DNA of 30,240 nt from a virus: positions 1 through 30,240 of IMG/VR virus record IMGVR_UViG_3300037847_000768; one strand, written 5' to 3'. How positions within the stretch are numbered: the first letter of the stretch is position 1; each line of letters opens with the position of its first letter. The position numbers and the translations under genes were made by a program. The notes beneath the pieces are model-generated. The model was not told where the DNA came from, searched no databases, and was given only the letters and a program-made list of their open reading frames with translations. Positions 6,177 to 21,192 of the stretch are shown one piece after another.

Positions 6177-8891
6177 TTATGGTATCAATATTAATTCTAC
6201 ACTACTTAATTCGTAAGGTTTGTAGTCTATTTTATTAACTCTATATTCTCTATTCTTAATCCTAATCTTGTAGTAAAACTCAAAGTTTGCAATATCTGAT
6301 GGCGTTAGATATATTTTTAATTTAACAATTCTTGTATCCGGATTATATAATTCATCATAATAAGGACTCCAATATTGGTTATATAAATTATCTATTGGAA
6401 TGTTACCTATAGTACTAACTATTGCTCCTGTTTCGTAATTATAATCTTTTGTTCCTGGAATTGTAGGTACATCTGATAAATGTGAGAATTGTAAAAATCT
6501 ACTTGTACTTGCTGAAGACACACCATTTTGAGCTGGTATAACAATATCAGCTGCTGGTAAAGTTTTCCTACCGTTATTATATAGTATTCTAGGTTTATTT
6601 TTAAATCCTGTATACGTACCATCATCATTTGCTTTATATATTAAAGGAATAACAAAATCAGTATAAAAATTAGAAAACGCTGGACTAATTAATGTAGAAC
6701 TGTATATTGTTTTTATTTTTTCTTCTCCATCTAATGCAGTTAGTTCGTTATTGGGTATAAATTTAGTTCCGTATTGTTGTCCTGTAGTACCGAAATATAC
6801 ATTTTTAGTATGATCGTCTTTGTCTTCTGTATATTCAAATAATACGTTTTTCTTTAGTTTAAGAGGATTTAACTTGATTTCTGATATATCAACCTTATCT
6901 GTCCAGGTTAGTTCTTTATGTGTAATATATTGACTGTCTGCCGTTATAAATACATCACTATATGGTTCAATGATTAAGTTATTAGGATTATCTTTGTCTT
7001 GTAATGCTATCAAATTAAACATATCAAAAAAACCTTTAATAAAATCCCATTGCGATAAATCTCCTCTTGCTATTGTAAAAGCTTCTACCATATTTGTGTC
7101 AGAGCTAACAGTCATATTCATTTTTGTAAACAATGTTATACCTGTTCCTGCGTGATAAAATTCCTGGTCTACTGTTATACCTGAAACATTATTTAGTAAG
7201 TCTGTGTGAAATTTTAATTTATCACCATTATTCAAAGTAAAATCAAATTGTCTAATTACAGTTTGTGGTATTCCAGAAGTGTTTGTATTTAAAGTGTGTT
7301 GTGTTACTACTGAACTTATTGTATTGTCGTTTGTATCTGTATGTAAAACTTCTATTCCTAAAACATCAGGACCAATTGTATTTACTATTTGAAACCTTAT
7401 TGTACCTTGAACATTTGTGTTATCAGCTGACGCTGTAAATTCGTTAGTACTTGTATCAAATCCTGTAGGAATAGATCCTGTTGTAAATTGCATATTTTGA
7501 GAAGAAGTAGGTAACGTATAGTCTGCTGCAATACTCATAGTTTGCATACCATGAGCATTTACAGGTGTTATTCCTTCTCCCCAATTAAAGTCTATATACA
7601 AATTTGTAAAATCTGGAGTGTTAAAAAAATCACTACTATAAGTAAAACCCGCTTCATCAAATATACGATCTACTAAATATTTACAATTAATCCACGGTCT
7701 AAATGCGTCTTCTAGTTTAGACATTTTTACTTTATCGTCTGTAGAGTCAACGTAGGTTTCTCCATTCCATCTACAAAAAGGATATTTTATAGTATCTGTA
7801 GACCTAAAAGTACTTGTATTAGGCTCTGTAAATGTAACTGATCCTGTTTGACTTGCAACTATATTTGTTCTATTATAATCGTGTGACAATTCCAGAAAGT
7901 CAATGTCTGAAAACTTTTTGTCTTTTAAGCTATCAGCTAAAGTTATAGTTTCTGAATATAGATTTACATTATAACTTATTTCTCCATCTTTATCAGTAAC
8001 ATCTATAAGTCTTAAATATCCTTCAAATATTGTAAAACTATCTTCTTTTAATATGCACTTTGTTTTTTTATATGGATGAAAACTAAAAGCGTCATCATTA
8101 ATACTTTTAGTTACGTCAAATAAACTTGTAAAGATCTTATTGTTTCGTTTTGTTGCTGGTAATTTAAAAGGTTTACTAAAACTTTGTTTTTTCTCATGTA
8201 TATTTTTAAAATCATCTACACTTAAACTCAACGGTATATAACTTTCTTCATATAAATCACAAATAACCTGTCCGTCTTTATATTCATTTATTAATGGAGC
8301 ACTTCCTACACTTTCTTTTATTGATACTTCTCCTATTTCTAATTTCGAATTGTCATCATTTGTGTAATTAATTATTAGTAATTGTTCTGTATGTGTTGCT
8401 GTAAATGTAAAGGTATGCGTTCCTACACTTGCTGGTAGTCCTTGGTATAATATAGGATGGTATGTAGTACCTCCAATTGTAATAGGTGTGTTATGTCCTA
8501 TACTTGATAAACCTGTTGTACCTGCTAATCTTTGAACTTTTAATGTATAAGTTGAACCAATAGTAAGATTACTAATTAATTGATATATTCCAGATAAACT
8601 TGCCGGACTAGTGTTTGCACTATCAATAATTACTTTACCTCCTGTTATTGTTGCTGCATCTGCTACACCTATAAATCCTGTACTGTTATATTGTTGCCAA
8701 ACATTTGTAGGCGCTGGTAATAGACCTGAAGCAAAAAAATCCGTTATTGATAACATACTACCACTAAAACCTGTTCCTAATGTTCCTATATTAAAACTAT
8801 AATCACTTACATATTCTGTAAATACAGGAGTACCAATAACACTATATTGTCCTTCATAGTTTTGTGGAAATAAAATTAATTGTACACTCAT
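6177..8891 (-). CDS. Large tail / tail-tip protein with an N-terminal carbohydrate-binding-like insert, 904 aa
   Basis: This is the largest protein in the window. It starts MSVQLILFPQNYEG. Residues about 60-195 look like a jelly-roll carbohydrate-binding module (YQLISNLTIGSTYTLKV, THTFTFTATHTEQLLIINY, then KLEIGEVSIKES). From about residue 200 the body (KDGQVICDLYEESYIPLSLSV onwards, in pieces such as SFSKPFKLPATKRNN) resembles a conserved large tail protein of flavobacterial phages, probably tail-tip or baseplate hub. No lysozyme or peptidase motif is seen. Stop and start codons of this gene and the upstream 480-aa gene share base 8891. Tail location is well supported by context; the precise role is inferred. 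Confidence 0.65.
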   Translation of the reverse strand: MSVQLILFPQNYEGQYSVIGTPVFTEYVSDYSFNIGTLGTGFSGSMLSITDFFASGLLPAPTNVWQQYNSTGFIGVADAATITGGKVIIDSANTSPASLSGIYQLISNLTIGSTYTLKVQRLAGTTGLSSIGHNTPITIGGTTYHPILYQGLPASVGTHTFTFTATHTEQLLIINYTNDDNSKLEIGEVSIKESVGSAPLINEYKDGQVICDLYEESYIPLSLSVDDFKNIHEKKQSFSKPFKLPATKRNNKIFTSLFDVTKSINDDAFSFHPYKKTKCILKEDSFTIFEGYLRLIDVTDKDGEISYNVNLYSETITLADSLKDKKFSDIDFLELSHDYNRTNIVASQTGSVTFTEPNTSTFRSTDTIKYPFCRWNGETYVDSTDDKVKMSKLEDAFRPWINCKYLVDRIFDEAGFTYSSDFFNTPDFTNLYIDFNWGEGITPVNAHGMQTMSIAADYTLPTSSQNMQFTTGSIPTGFDTSTNEFTASADNTNVQGTIRFQIVNTIGPDVLGIEVLHTDTNDNTISSVVTQHTLNTNTSGIPQTVIRQFDFTLNNGDKLKFHTDLLNNVSGITVDQEFYHAGTGITLFTKMNMTVSSDTNMVEAFTIARGDLSQWDFIKGFFDMFNLIALQDKDNPNNLIIEPYSDVFITADSQYITHKELTWTDKVDISEIKLNPLKLKKNVLFEYTEDKDDHTKNVYFGTTGQQYGTKFIPNNELTALDGEEKIKTIYSSTLISPAFSNFYTDFVIPLIYKANDDGTYTGFKNKPRILYNNGRKTLPAADIVIPAQNGVSSASTSRFLQFSHLSDVPTIPGTKDYNYETGAIVSTIGNIPIDNLYNQYWSPYYDELYNPDTRIVKLKIYLTPSDIANFEFYYKIRIKNREYRVNKIDYKPYELSSVELILIP

Positions 8892-13041: not shown

Positions 13042-14358
13042 TTATTGAACAAAATACTTACCAAAATTAGCATCTATCTCATAATACATTCTCATCATTA
13101 TAGCGTCTGCATAATCTGGAGAACGACCTAAAATACTTTTAGTTACGTCTTTTGGTATTATCTGTAATTTGTTATCTTTATCCATGTCTTTAGATCTTAC
13201 CTGTTCTAATTCTTCTATGATAAAATTTTTCTGTGTTATATCGTTTGTTTCAATTCCGATCTGACCTTTATTAATCATGTCGGCTAATTTATAATAACAT
13301 TGTGTTTTTATGTTCTGATAATTTTCTTTGTTTAATGGACGCCCGTTATTCTGAAAACCTTTACACCTTAATATATCAACTGCACCTCCACCAACTCCAT
13401 CCTCATCTAAAATTATATTACTTAGTCTTACACCTTCGTTCTGTTGTATTCTTTTAATTTCGTTTGTAATATCAGTTATGGAGGATTTACCGTAAGTTAT
13501 AATCTTTTTAATAGTTAATCCTTCCCAGTACATTATAACTGTCTTATCAGTTCCAAAACGTGCAACATCACAAGTAATGTATTTATCTCCCTCTAATCCT
13601 TTTTGTGAAAATAGATTAATTATAGCATCATAATTACACAAGTTATCTTCTCCTGCATTGTATTCCCAATTACCAAATAACAACCTTTGTTTAGATATTT
13701 CGTCTAATTTGTCTAATTGTCCTTTATAGTGAACTGAAATGTATGGGTTGTCATCAACTAGACTTTGTATAAACTTTTTATGTGGTTCTATTTTACCTTC
13801 TTTTGACGGTCGATAGTATTGTGTATATGTCCAGTTCTTTGATGGATTGCAAGTCAATAACAGTTTAGGAATTAATCCGTATGTATCTAACTTGTATCTA
13901 ATTCTTGAATTTACAATGTTCTTTGCTTTCTCTGTTATTTGATTAGCCTCGTCAATAAATGCTCCTGTAATTTCCAAACTACCCAAACTGTCGTAGTTAG
14001 GATCTGCGGGATAATGAAACAGGTCTTTTAACATTATCTCACTATCATTGTAGAATTTAATTATATTACTACTCGCATTAAAATTAAAATGTTTTCCTGC
14101 TATTATATTCCATTGACTACTAACCTCAAAAAATGTGTTTAATGTTGTTTTCTTCAAGTTATCCAACTTACTTCTACCCATTAAATATCTTGTTCCTGGA
14201 TATTTTAAACACATTATTATTACCCAAGCACACCCTATGAAACTTTTACCTCCTCCAGCTGCTCCTCCAAAAAGTATGTCGTTAGTTGTATTATCAAATA
14301 AATATTTTATTGCTCGTTTTTGTGTATTAGTAAAACTCGGACTAATATTCAATTCCAT
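13042..14358 (-). CDS. terL: Terminase large subunit, 438 aa
   Basis: The DNA-packaging motor ATPase and nuclease. N-terminal ATPase: Walker A GGAAGGGKS (31-39), Walker B TGAFIDEA (131-138), and the coupling-type motif LLLTCNPSKNW (166-176). C-terminal nuclease: ITCDVARFGTDKTVI with D264, a second acidic stretch ILDEDGVGGGAVD in the middle of the domain, and SPDYADAIMM near the end. The length is normal for the family. It overlaps the small-subunit gene by 17 bp and is followed by the chaperone-like gene. The portal gene, often next in line, is about 15 kb away on the linear map. Confidence 0.95.
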   Translation of the reverse strand: MELNISPSFTNTQKRAIKYLFDNTTNDILFGGAAGGGKSFIGCAWVIIMCLKYPGTRYLMGRSKLDNLKKTTLNTFFEVSSQWNIIAGKHFNFNASSNIIKFYNDSEIMLKDLFHYPADPNYDSLGSLEITGAFIDEANQITEKAKNIVNSRIRYKLDTYGLIPKLLLTCNPSKNWTYTQYYRPSKEGKIEPHKKFIQSLVDDNPYISVHYKGQLDKLDEISKQRLLFGNWEYNAGEDNLCNYDAIINLFSQKGLEGDKYITCDVARFGTDKTVIMYWEGLTIKKIITYGKSSITDITNEIKRIQQNEGVRLSNIILDEDGVGGGAVDILRCKGFQNNGRPLNKENYQNIKTQCYYKLADMINKGQIGIETNDITQKNFIIEELEQVRSKDMDKDNKLQIIPKDVTKSILGRSPDYADAIMMRMYYEIDANFGKYFVQ

Positions 14359-14689
14359 CTATATTGATGTTTATTTTTATAGGTTCTTCTCCAGTAGTAA
14401 TATCTAATTTGTTTTGTTCATTCCAACCTAATCTTGTCTTAGCTGCATGTATTACAACTGAAGGTATCTTATCGCTAACACATTCATAATACTTTGACTT
14501 GATAAAATCTTTTTGTATGTTATCAATTTCTTGCACCTGTCTAGCAAACTCCTCATCTTCTTTCAACCACTTATAATAGTTTGTCCTGGATAGATCTGTA
14601 TTTTTTAAAGCAGTTGTAATAACTCCTAAACTTGACTCTAAAGCCTTTAGTAATCTTTTTTTGTTAATCTTTGTTCTATTTTGCTCCAT
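14342..14689 (-). CDS. terS: Terminase small subunit, 115 aa
   Basis: DNA-recognition subunit of the terminase, immediately before terL. The N-terminal half contains a helix-turn-helix-like region (LGVITTALKNTDLSRTNYYK, then WLKEDEEFARQ), followed by a helix (IQKDFIKSKYYECV) and a C-terminal segment with IHAAKTRLGWNEQNK, the usual small-terminase ending pattern. I chose ATG at 14689 (MEQNRTKINKK), which has the TATAAA start context. The frame stays open to an ATG at 14731, but the extra 14 codons lie in or next to the tRNA-like element. Confidence 0.85.
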   Translation of the reverse strand: MEQNRTKINKKRLLKALESSLGVITTALKNTDLSRTNYYKWLKEDEEFARQVQEIDNIQKDFIKSKYYECVSDKIPSVVIHAAKTRLGWNEQNKLDITTGEEPIKININIDGIEY

Positions 14690-14705
14690 TTTATAAAAAA
14701 ATTTG

Positions 14706-14777
14706 AGCGTCAAGGTGGAGTCGAACCCCATCTTCTCACTGGATTGTGAGACGCTTTAACCGTTAAGCTATTGACGC
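14706..14777 (-). tRNA. tRNA-like element, isotype not assignable
   Basis: The 72-nt minus-strand sequence folds as a cloverleaf: a perfect 7-bp acceptor GCGTCAA/TTGACGC, T8-A9, D-arm GCTT/AAGC with GG in an 8-nt loop, and an anticodon-position hairpin TCTCA/TGAGA. The T-loop TTCGACT is normal. Odd points: the anticodon loop is 8 nt (CAATCCAG), or 6 nt if a sixth pair forms, so no anticodon can be read; two of five T-stem pairs are mismatched; and CCA is not encoded. It overlaps the 3' end of the mom-like gene, whose TAG stop supplies positions 8-10. It may be a degenerate tRNA or a tRNA-shaped RNA processing element between mom and terS. Confidence 0.6.
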
Positions 14778-15412
14778 TTATTTCCTAAATACATACCCGC
14801 TCCTTTTTCTTTAATTGTCGAGTATGGTAGATTTTCTACATTTAATTTACTTTTTTTGTCTATCAAATAAATATACCTCAATTGATAACCTTTTAACTTT
14901 TCAGCTCCAGTAAAATCTTTTTTACTAGTTCCATGTTTTGCAATTGTTTCTCCACTTGGTAATTTATATATTGTTGAATTTTTATTTATACCTGTTAGAT
15001 AAAATCCAGACGCTCTGTATATTGTTCCGTCTCCACATTGTGTTCCGTCTGCAAAACTTAGTATCCATTTTATTTGTGGTGCATTTTTTTTTATTAATTT
15101 TATACTTACACTTATACACCTACTTTCACTGTTCTTTGGTAATAATGAACTAAACCCCATCCTGTTTAACTCTAACATTTCATTCCACTTTGCGTTCATT
15201 CCTTTATTACTTGTCTCAACAAAATTTAAAATATTTCTTTTATCAATAGGATTTCCGTAAGACATAACTCCTCCAAGCTTATTATCTAAAAAACAACCAA
15301 AATGTAAAATTGAATTATTTACAACTTTACCACTATAGTGATGTTGTTTAATAAATTCGTTTGCTATTGTTGAATTTATAACTTTTACTTTTATTTCCTT
15401 TGCTCTACCCAC
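14768..15412 (-). CDS. mom: Mom-like DNA adenine modification protein, 214 aa
   Basis: Resembles phage Mu Mom, the GNAT-like enzyme that modifies adenine in DNA and protects it from restriction. In this protein HHYSG (24-28) would correspond to the Mu His-Tyr pair, SESR (R98) to its essential Arg, FADG (D122) to its Asp and TIYRASGF (Y132) to its Tyr. The D-to-Y spacing of 10 is as I remember it for Mu Mom. Other family patterns are LGGVMSYGNP, ELNRMGF and CGDGTIYRASGF. The gene overlaps the ParB-like gene by 22 bp and precedes the terminase genes, so it is probably expressed before packaging. The chemistry of the modification here is not known; Mu-type carbamoylmethyl adenine is an inference. 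Confidence 0.8.
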   Translation of the reverse strand: MGRAKEIKVKVINSTIANEFIKQHHYSGKVVNNSILHFGCFLDNKLGGVMSYGNPIDKRNILNFVETSNKGMNAKWNEMLELNRMGFSSLLPKNSESRCISVSIKLIKKNAPQIKWILSFADGTQCGDGTIYRASGFYLTGINKNSTIYKLPSGETIAKHGTSKKDFTGAEKLKGYQLRYIYLIDKKSKLNVENLPYSTIKEKGAGMYLGNKRQ

Positions 15413-15984
15413 TCTTTTACTATTTCATAAATTGCATTACCGTTCATATTCTCGTTACCAAATGTTTCGTCAAATATATTACTTTTTGCCGACTTTATAA
15501 ATTTAATTTGTTCTTTTATAAATTCAACTTGTTGATCAGCTAAAGTAAAAGTCATTTGTTGATACGGTTCTTTCTCATTTTCTGGTAAACTAAAATCGTC
15601 TGAAACTTCAATGTCATCTATGTTTTGCCAAACATCAAGTCCCCACTCAACTAAATCATTACTGTTCCATTCATTTGCTAATAAATTCCACTCCCATTCT
15701 CCAAAACCTACGTTGTCCTTTACAATAAATTCATCTTTTTGTTTTTGTGTTAATCCTTCCGCTATATCTATCCACACTTCTTTTAATCCAGCTTCTTTAC
15801 TAGCTTTTAATCTCATATTCCCTCCAAGAACTATCATGTTTTCATCAACGACTATCGGACGTAGTTTTAACATTTCAGGAAACTCTTTTATAGACTTAAC
15901 TAATTTATTAAACTTATCATTCTTAATTACTCTAGGATTTTTTGGATTAGATTTTATATTGTTTAACTTAACTAGTTTTCTCAT
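15391..15984 (-). CDS. ParB/sulfiredoxin-like domain protein, 197 aa
   Basis: N-terminal ParB-like domain: LNNIKSNPKNPRVIKNDKF (7-25), LVKSIKEFP, LRPIVVDENMIVLGGNMRLKA (41-61, the family's G-G-x-x-R core), then a linker with GFGEWEWNLLANEWN and LVEWGLDVW. In many phages this same N-terminal part is fused to a DNA methyltransferase domain. Here it instead ends with a separate segment (MTFTLADQQVEFIKEQI, GNENMNGNAIYEI) and overlaps a Mom-like gene. I infer a partner of DNA modification, perhaps DNA binding or nucleotide-dependent recruitment. It is not a typical partition ParB: no HTH domain and no ParA nearby. The start abuts motif copy 4. Confidence 0.8.
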   Translation of the reverse strand: MRKLVKLNNIKSNPKNPRVIKNDKFNKLVKSIKEFPEMLKLRPIVVDENMIVLGGNMRLKASKEAGLKEVWIDIAEGLTQKQKDEFIVKDNVGFGEWEWNLLANEWNSNDLVEWGLDVWQNIDDIEVSDDFSLPENEKEPYQQMTFTLADQQVEFIKEQIKFIKSAKSNIFDETFGNENMNGNAIYEIVKEWVEQRK

Positions 15985-18975: not shown

Positions 18976-19157
18976 AGTTTTAATTTTAATTGTTTGTTTT
19001 CTTTTATTTGTAATTCGTTAAATAATTCATGTATTTCTTTTCCTTTTAAATTACTAGTTATTCCAGTCATTAGTTTGTTTGCAATAAATGGATTATTTGT
19101 CATAGCGTCTACAATTAATCTGACTTTACTTACTGGATTTAATTCTTCTGATTTCAT
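18972..19157 (-). CDS. Hypothetical protein, 61 aa
   Basis: Starts MKSEELNPVSKVRLIVDAM and continues with NNPFIANKLMTGITSNLKGK and a helical lysine-rich end. ATGA overlaps on both sides tie it to the methyltransferase and the winged-helix gene. No family recognised. Confidence 0.55.
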   Translation of the reverse strand: MKSEELNPVSKVRLIVDAMTNNPFIANKLMTGITSNLKGKEIHELFNELQIKENKQLKLKL

Positions 19158-19780
19158 AATACGCTAGCTATTATTTCTATTAGTAATTGTTCTGGGATTT
19201 TACTTCGTTCATAGTTATTTTTTAATCCTTGTGTTCCTGTCCTAGAACCTCTTGGTGCATATTCGTGGTGACAATGTTTATTACCTGCATAACATTGTGG
19301 TTTTGGTCGCCAACCTTCAGTATTAAATATATCATAAATATGATTACTCCAAATATCCGTAGGTTTCATTCTGTTATCACCATAAGAACAATAAGTAATT
19401 GTTGTACGATTAATACCTTTTATTTTTCTACGCATTTTACCTACAGGGTTTTCTATAAAATAATATTCTGGTTTGTAGTGTTCTATTATTTCTAAAGTTT
19501 TATTAAGTATTTGCATTCCTAAAATAGCTTCTTTTGTCTTTGGTGTGTGGTCTTCGTTCCAATGATGCCCTATACTAGCTACACTAAAATACGTACAGGG
19601 GGGTGAAGCCCATATTATGTTTGGTCTAAATGGTACTTTACTATAGTCAAATTTTAATATATCTACTACATAATCTATATTTTTAAAGTCGTTTATATCT
19701 ACACTAAATACTTCTAAACCAAATTTTTCGGCTACTTTACCAAATGATCTACTACCTGCAAATAATTCTAGTGCTTTCAC
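19154..19780 (-). CDS. C5-cytosine DNA methyltransferase-like protein, 208 aa
   Basis: SAM-dependent DNA cytosine methyltransferase signature: motif I ELFAGSRSFG (5-14), motif II-like VFSVDIN with D28, catalytic motif IV WASPPCTYFS with C62, and motif VI YFIENPVGKMR (107-117). TTITYCSYGD follows and may stand for motif VIII. At 208 aa it is shorter than typical enzymes (over 300), with a compact target-recognition part rich in Cys/His (QCYAGNKHCHHEYAPRGSRT). Catalytic residues are intact. It may protect phage DNA from host restriction or act with the PP-loop and Mom-like genes; sequence specificity cannot be read. Confidence 0.8.
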   Translation of the reverse strand: MKALELFAGSRSFGKVAEKFGLEVFSVDINDFKNIDYVVDILKFDYSKVPFRPNIIWASPPCTYFSVASIGHHWNEDHTPKTKEAILGMQILNKTLEIIEHYKPEYYFIENPVGKMRRKIKGINRTTITYCSYGDNRMKPTDIWSNHIYDIFNTEGWRPKPQCYAGNKHCHHEYAPRGSRTGTQGLKNNYERSKIPEQLLIEIIASVL

Positions 19781-20340: not shown

Positions 20341-21192
20341 TTAATTTGCTTTACAAAAACAATCTGTTTCAAAATCCATATTATCGTCGAATAAGTTTCC
20401 TTGTTTTTTTCTTAATTCGTGTTGATCTTCAATAGTATTAAACGGCAACTCAGACTCATTTATTAAATCTCTTACAGTCTTGTTAGATCTTAAGTCAAAT
20501 CTAGGGTATTTTTCTGTTGTATATTTACTTTCTATATTATCCCACCACTCAGCGTCTCCAGGACTTTCTTTTATCATAGTCAATCTTTTTCTAACTGACT
20601 TTTTAAAACATAAATCACAGTTTCCTTGATAATCTTTTATTTGTAAATCAAAACATTGTTTATCCCACCAACTCCTAATAAAATTTACATCTATTTTTAT
20701 ATCGTCACATAATGGGTATATAAATTTTTTATTCTCTGCATGAATGCTTTTTCTATGTCTTTCGTCATATCTTATACCCATTGCTGTATATACTTCTTTA
20801 TATTTTAAGTCTTTAACATATTTATCCATAGGTCTTTGTTTTAATTCTCTTGTACAAATTGATGCAAAAGTGTTTGGTAATCCATACTTTTTAATCATTT
20901 CCTCAAAAGGTTCTCCGTTTCTACTTGCTGTTTTAAAATCTACTATTTTGTATGTAGTTGCTATTCCCTTTTCTTTATTAACTTTTGCTTCTAACCATAC
21001 TACATTTAAGTTCCATTCTTTATCACATTGATCTATAAATTTTAATGTTTCTTCTTTTTCTTTACCAGTATTAGCAAATAAAAAAACCTTATCATAATCT
21101 TTATACTTATCATATTCAATCAAAAATTTTGCCATAAAAGCTGATGTTCTACCACCTGAAAAGGTGCATACTAAAAGTTTTTTATTTTTCAT
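20341..21192 (-). CDS. PP-loop ATPase, PAPS-reductase/DndC-like, 283 aa
   Basis: N-terminal PP-loop SGGRTSA (12-18) within a KLLVCTFSGGRTS start, followed by VFLFANTGKEKEETLKFI (36-53), as in the PAPS reductase/ATP pyrophosphatase superfamily. Further conserved points are SICTRELKQRPM (C113), MGIRYDERHR (138-147) and a C-terminal CDLCFKK (C192, C195) that could bind a metal or Fe-S cluster. DndC of phosphorothioation systems and many phage proteins share this layout. No other dnd genes are here, so the substrate is unknown: DNA sulfur modification, nucleoside modification or sulfur metabolism are options. It is near the methyltransferase gene. Confidence 0.8.
   Translation of the reverse strand: MKNKKLLVCTFSGGRTSAFMAKFLIEYDKYKDYDKVFLFANTGKEKEETLKFIDQCDKEWNLNVVWLEAKVNKEKGIATTYKIVDFKTASRNGEPFEEMIKKYGLPNTFASICTRELKQRPMDKYVKDLKYKEVYTAMGIRYDERHRKSIHAENKKFIYPLCDDIKIDVNFIRSWWDKQCFDLQIKDYQGNCDLCFKKSVRKRLTMIKESPGDAEWWDNIESKYTTEKYPRFDLRSNKTVRDLINESELPFNTIEDQHELRKKQGNLFDDNMDFETDCFCKAN

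Follow-up and report, generated by a model that had tools for sequence, protein, structure and literature searches.

The stretch of DNA analysed here (hereafter the window), a linear record of 30,240 bp, belongs to a virus of bacteria. Four genes, all on the minus strand, follow one another in the order ParB-like gene, Mom-like gene, terminase small subunit-like gene (TerS) and terminase large subunit (TerL), which places the ParB-Mom pair immediately ahead of the two terminase genes. The first (15391..15984) encodes a ParB/sulfiredoxin-domain partner protein of 197 aa, assigned from PHROG matches, a structural model and PDB matches, and the second (14768..15412) a Mom-like DNA modification enzyme of 214 aa with a GTG start and a predicted GNAT-like fold. 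They overlap by 22 nt read in two coding frames (15391..15412), the ParB-like protein ending there in EQRK-stop and Mom beginning with MGRAKEI. Within the ParB-like gene we distinguished a core shared by cassettes with different modifiers (15625..15984, minus strand, about residues 1-120) and a Mom-specific C-terminal tail (15394..15603, minus strand, residues 128-197) that forms two helices in the model. TerS (14342..14731) was identified by PHROG (E 1.7e-4) and has a conserved position, and TerL (13042..14358) matched PHROG 2 (E 1e-30) and Pfam Terminase_6N. The reading frames, coordinates, 22-bp overlap and pre-terminase position given in a preliminary description of this DNA were exact, and its observation that the usual methyltransferase is missing also held, since Pfam and PHROG detected none fused to or beside the ParB-like protein, which is 197 aa long.

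A tRNA-like gene overlaps the 3' end of mom (14706..14777, minus strand; Rfam tRNA 44.6 bits against a gathering threshold of 29), on the downstream border of the cassette whose exchange is described below. It was also found in two other loci (L003 and L005). Its anticodon loop looks abnormal, and ARAGORN called no tRNA in the window, including this Rfam-matched copy.

Profile searches and modelling firmly identified the 214-aa protein as a true Mom homologue with a predicted Mom fold. It matched Pfam PF25680 with an E-value of 6.6e-47 (160.2 bits against a cut-off of 27.1) over the whole domain, residues 7-198 aligning with positions 2-201 of the 202 of the profile, and PHROG 1384 with an E-value of 6e-47; its identity with phage Mu Mom was 35.6%. 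The AlphaFold2 model, obtained with 36 relatives in the alignment, had a mean pLDDT of 91.8, and its best PDB match was the crystal structure of Mu Mom (8bv8; Foldseek E 7e-18, TM 0.72), followed by GNAT acetyltransferases. Both the Mom-like identity and the GNAT-like Mom fold anticipated in the preliminary description were thus recovered.

Nine columns were invariant among the relatives, H25, Y26, G48, G53, E81, R84, S97, G129 and Y132, which correspond to H58, Y59, G81, G86, E108, R111, S124, G156 and Y159 of Mu Mom; D122 (Mu D149) was conserved in at least 90%. Among the putative catalytic residues proposed previously, H25, Y26, D122 and Y132 were therefore well chosen, whereas R98 varies among relatives and S97 had been overlooked. 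The 8bv8 entry is titled "inactive mutant S124A", and the window Mom thus keeps, in S97, a residue known to matter. The active-site residues, including this equivalent of Mu S124, are all present. Mu Mom makes N6-carbamoylmethyl-adenine, and by analogy the window Mom is predicted to add a carbamoylmethyl-type group to the N6 of adenine.

The ParB-like protein scored 25.1 bits with Pfam ParB_N, just below the cut-off of 26.3, and matched the PHROG families of ParB/nuclease/MTase N-termini with E-values of about 1e-23. Its model (pLDDT 89.5) resembled ParB-CTP complexes, KorB and Noc in the PDB, with a fainter resemblance to sulfiredoxin and free serine kinase. Similarly, its A2 profile matched Spo0J/ParB (E 4e-14) and sulfiredoxin (E 2e-7). 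The Gly-x-x-Arg motif is present, with G55 invariant and R58 conserved in at least 90%. By sequence and by model, the protein is a member of the ParB/Srx superfamily with the ParB-N fold and the Gly-x-x-Arg motif. In the ParB of M. xanthus, Q52 and E93 (the Glu of GERR) have a role in CTP hydrolysis, and the mutants Q52A and E93A are represented in the PDB by 7bnr and 7o0n, with trapped nucleotide. Their equivalents are replaced here, by N16 for the former and by N56 or His for the latter, and standard CTP clamp behaviour is thus not a safe assumption. As regards the central parS-binding helix-turn-helix and the C-terminal dimer domain of partition ParBs, the alignment with ParBs of solved structure ends at about positions 99-122 and the remainder of the protein is the Mom tail, with model helices at 150-166 and 180-196. 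Within the cassette itself, inspected without a dedicated ParA search, no ParA was seen.

The preliminary description had proposed to look for the same gene pair across phage genomes. With the window Mom as bait in viral contigs, 80 close relatives were recovered and a ParB lay directly upstream of Mom in 79 of them; in the remaining one, just 29 nt of the contig precede Mom. With a Psychrobacter-phage Mom as bait, a ParB occupied this position in 71 of 72 new relatives, and the other contig begins inside an upstream tandem Mom. The latter set also contained the variants ParB-Mom-Mom and ParB-ParB-Mom. In contrast, no ParB was found beside Mu-type Moms (0/32 loci, within the flanking DNA examined) or beside the Mom genes of annotated phages whose flanks were inspected (0/12). 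The pair thus marks one large clade of Moms and not all Moms. In one locus (L318:1488-2792), a single in-frame ORF combines Mom with a tail-less ParB core and a C-terminal CxxC-type end, and adjoins an ordinary ParB-Mom pair. Tandem Moms (L113, L122, L145, L318 and others) include one divergent copy in which THSGGCKNDCG replaces SFADGTQCGDG, as if there were two Mom chemistries or a heterodimer.

Among 81 pairs from the relatives of the window Mom, 71 had a gene overlap of exactly 22 nt, and the Mom start was conserved (72 ATG, 8 GTG and 1 TTG). Such conservation in dozens of relatives rules out a chance overlap or a spurious reading frame. The arrangement recalls the mom/com operon of phage Mu, in which Mom belongs to the same family by sequence, fold and active-site residues and the upstream gene overlaps mom; the ParB-like gene occupies the position of com, and the conserved overlap has the geometry expected for re-initiation. 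The ParB-like protein could thus regulate mom expression as Com does, either by binding DNA or mRNA nearby or because its translation opens the mom start. However, no conserved RNA structure was found at the overlap (5 weak pairs, -0.6 kcal/mol), which led us to reject a Com-like RNA switch there, and a pure regulator would have no need of a tail matched to the enzyme family instead of to the locus, or of fusions with enzymes (ParB-MTase and Mom-ParB). We consider this explanation unlikely. The preliminary description was right to set the locus apart from Mu: the upstream gene encodes not the Com zinc-finger translational activator but a ParB-like protein whose tail is Mom-specific, the overlap gives no sign of an RNA hairpin, and the cassette lies by the terminase instead of at the genome end.

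A profile of the tail (residues 128-197), built from the clade of the window alone, detected this region in 79 of 79 Mom-adjacent ParBs of that clade and in 70 of 71 of those of the Psychrobacter-type set, the exception (L120) being a visibly diverged copy. The tail was found in none of 57 ParBs from Mom-less sister phages, whose cores are equally close, and was absent from the ParB-methyltransferase proteins that share contigs with ParB-Mom pairs. The possibility that the pairing was a by-product of using Mom as bait was addressed by searching with the tail alone (alignment A3), Mom not being used. This retrieved 16 loci in bacterial genomes, to which we added the best 80 of at least 574 loci in viral contigs. 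Among the 95 loci that could be evaluated, i.e., those with enough downstream DNA, Mom was adjacent in 94 according to the script and in all 95 on inspection; in the script exception (L284), the Mom ORF overlaps owing to an upstream start call, an artefact of ORF starts. Among the host names given in the genome records were Limnohabitans, Rodentibacter, Treponema, Larkinella, Saprospiraceae, Acidobacteria, Anaerolineae, Clostridia, Microbacteriaceae and candidate phyla. This spread over several phyla, together with the partner swaps described below, rules out that ParB-Mom is the private pair of one lineage.

There were counter-examples in both directions: two distant Moms (L221 and L267) lie next to ParBs without the tail, and Enterococcus phage fHoEfm07 carries a diverged tail on a ParB that is followed by TerS, without Mom. 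When two representative tails were searched against about 50,700 phage records, a single record matched, whereas hundreds of viral contigs do; the tail has thus been hidden by the isolates.

We then considered the pre-terminase slot, using the terminase of the window as bait (80 loci). A ParB-like gene was present upstream of TerS in 59 of these loci, among them every one of the 46 in which 2.5 kb or more of sequence precedes TerL. Its partners were diverse: a TET/JBP oxygenase (12 loci), a TAGT glycosyltransferase (10), both (8), a glycosyltransferase-like protein with weak Pfam support (6), a DXD glycosyltransferase with TAGT (5), a ParB-methyltransferase fusion with an AdoMet decarboxylase (4) and Mom (2). 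The 12 loci without a profile match comprised six ParB-methyltransferase fusions (3 recognised by Pfam and 3 by sequence), one separate methyltransferase, one TAGT, one DAM-like/GNAT protein and three sets of deazaguanine genes. In these last three (L204-L206), GTP cyclohydrolase and QueC were identified by Pfam, accompanied by a QueD-like gene and by a DpdA-like gene recognised by eye alone; their ParB is of a different type from that of the window, and their terminase is 84% identical. The preliminary description had tied the ParB-like protein to Mom-type modification. That it serves Mom is strongly supported by the Mom-specific tail and by the one Mom-ParB fusion ORF, but its core is not specific to Mom, being also found with TET/JBP, glycosyltransferase, methyltransferase and deazaguanine enzymes.

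The AdoMet decarboxylase-like gene (PF02675) lies directly after the ParB-methyltransferase fusion and before TerS (L211:1092-1382, L212:3887-4177, L268 and L269), which suggests a modification using decarboxylated AdoMet, e.g., aminopropyl transfer. Outside the family of the window, the ParB of Leptospira phage LE3 (L096:2950-4571) overlaps a gene for an ABC-ATPase/GNAT fusion, also in pre-terminase position, and this fusion is a candidate for another ParB-partnered modifier of the GNAT type; a scan with the Leptospira ABC-GNAT protein recovered one near-identical contig and nothing else. In the archaeal virus vir215, a pre-terminase ParB is fused to a second domain.

The location of the cassette directly before TerS and TerL in the window, in the Psychrobacter and Leptospira phages and in many contigs, as well as the ParB-TerS succession without Mom in fHoEfm07, would also be expected if the ParB-like protein were a packaging (terminase) factor lying beside modification genes by happenstance. 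We give this the least credence, because the modifier, and not the terminase, predicts the type of tail, because ParB also occurs in fusions with methyltransferases and, in one case, with Mom, and because several ParB-Mom pairs (L115, L126, L135 and L138) showed no terminase match in the flanking DNA available.

The diversity of the partners also bears on what the core itself may do. A ParB-like nuclease could cut unmodified DNA while the modifier shields that of the phage, in the manner of restriction-modification; some ParB/Srx proteins nick DNA (PMC12839542), the PHROG label of the core includes the word nuclease, and jumbo phages with Mom domains fused to endonucleases have been described (PMC7824862). 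Yet marks of different chemistry, on different bases, would then all have to inhibit one and the same core; we identified no catalytic nuclease signature in the ParB-like protein, and labels such as "ParB-like nuclease" are inherited. We regard this scenario as quite improbable. Alternatively, the ParB/Srx domain could perform a chemical step, such as a nucleotide-dependent activation of the donor or of the base. This would agree with the presence of free serine kinase and sulfiredoxin among its lower-scoring fold matches, and DpdB offers a precedent as a ParB-like ATPase serving DpdA (PMC12839542). The core, however, stays constant across modification of adenine N6 and pyrimidine C5, sugar transfer and deazaguanine modification, and is thus unlikely to do the chemistry; the partner enzymes use unrelated chemistries, Mu Mom requires no such protein, and the Cys of sulfiredoxin is absent at the Gly-x-x-Arg motif. 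A chemical role of the domain therefore seems very improbable to us.

A natural swap could be followed at the nucleotide level. One relative (L203) carries ParB-TAGT-TET where the window has ParB-Mom. Protein identity between the two is 84-92% for the six upstream genes, 93% for TerL and 94-99% beyond, against 51% for TerS, and their ParBs align at residues 3-128 alone, with 65% identity. With this closest terminase relative, DNA similarity ends at position 15625 of the window, which is the core/tail junction, and resumes at 14407. It also ends at 15625 in L207, which has a different modifier. L003 is the mirror case: its flanks are only about 40-74% identical to those of the window, yet its Mom is 97% and its ParB 83% identical.

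The same modularity was apparent in comparisons between partner classes. Similarity to the Mom-paired cores was 0.65-0.69 across partners, whereas tail similarity was 0.71 among Mom-paired ParBs and 0.06-0.11 between these and ParBs with other partners. The ParBs paired with an oxygenase and a glycosyltransferase have a shared tail of their own (0.48), as do those of the weak glycosyltransferase-like class (0.63), whereas other classes contain more than one tail type. Adjacency, a partner-specific tail and the exchange of the tail together with the modifier establish, at the level of sequence, both the partnership of ParB and Mom and its modular nature.

We therefore favour, with a probability of about 0.6, the view that ParB-Mom is a dedicated modification cassette in which the ParB-like protein is an accessory adaptor subunit for Mom. 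Mom would be the enzyme and the ParB-like protein its accessory subunit; the common ParB/sulfiredoxin core would contact DNA, and perhaps a nucleotide, while the short helical tail would dock Mom. The 22-nt overlap could couple translation and thereby ensure that both proteins are produced together, and the pre-terminase position would fit late expression, the DNA being modified before packaging. Since the same core occurs with other tails and modifiers in related phages, its job should be independent of the chemistry, most likely the loading or presentation of interchangeable modifiers on phage DNA; since the tail changes with the enzyme, it is most simply seen as a docking element. The physical docking, the loading on DNA, the timing and the chemical product are what we infer in this adaptor model. 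The ability of Mu-type Moms to work without any ParB was counted against it, as were the tail-less ParBs beside the Moms of L221 and L267, the diverged tail of fHoEfm07 and the replaced clamp residues. More tentatively, and with somewhat less than an even chance, the ParB core may be a universal docking and loading subunit with a tail coded for each partner, modifiers being swapped by recombination inside parB. Adenine acylation, methylation, TET oxidation and glycosylation would then be exchanged with one another while the delivery machinery is kept.

ParBc domains fused to or near phage DNA-modifying enzymes are already known, with a role called unknown (PMC12783734). In particular, ParBc (PF02195) genes of unknown function were reported near CmoX/CmoY, the enzymes of a phage cytosine hypermodification (PMC12783734); they resemble our case by this proximity to a base-modifying enzyme but concern another base and other enzymes, and no Mom, tail or swap was described there. 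The Dpd system also includes a ParB-like partner (the ATPase DpdB) of a DNA base modifier (DpdA) (PMC12839542); its enzyme and chemistry differ, and the ParB type of L204-L206 is not that of the window. The ParB-methyltransferase fusions (PHROG 498, ParB_N with N6_N4_Mtase) have the same core, a modifier that is likewise fused or adjacent, and the same slot in sister phages; unlike them, the window has a separate Mom gene and its ParB has its own tail. Many phages are known to encode Mom enzymes, which in some cases are nuclease fusions (PMC7824862). In the literature that we searched, neither the pairing of ParB with Mom nor partner-specific tails nor a swap slot was mentioned, although older surveys may have priority. 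Within these bounds, the association of ParB with modification is a known theme, of which a Mom-paired ParB with a partner-specific tail is a new variant. Because the tail is specific to Mom and is naturally exchanged together with the modifier, the role of ParB becomes a testable hypothesis, in which the core would be a shared platform and the tail a plug. If true, this would explain how phages quickly change the chemistry of their DNA, give a rule for finding new modifiers (look beside a ParB with an unfamiliar tail) and provide a means of directing DNA-modifying enzymes.

A described counterpart is the ORF16-ORF17 pair of Psychrobacter phage vB_PmaS_Y8A, which is the same pair with the same tail in pre-terminase position (Mom 51% and ParB 31% identical to those of the window). 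In the published annotation, the ParB is a partition protein, ORF17 is unnamed and ORF69 is Mom (PMC10434257). This phage (OQ059336.1) thus has two Mom genes, at 39393-40157 (L083) and 7125-7778, namely ORF69, which is annotated as Mom, and the ParB-linked ORF17, which is not. Two further genes were observed elsewhere in the window, both on the minus strand. A 208-aa ORF at 19154-19780 matched the C-5 cytosine methylases (PF00145, E 2e-5) and is possibly a second modification gene of the same phage, and a PAPS reductase-domain protein (PF01507, E 3e-9) is encoded at 20341-21192.
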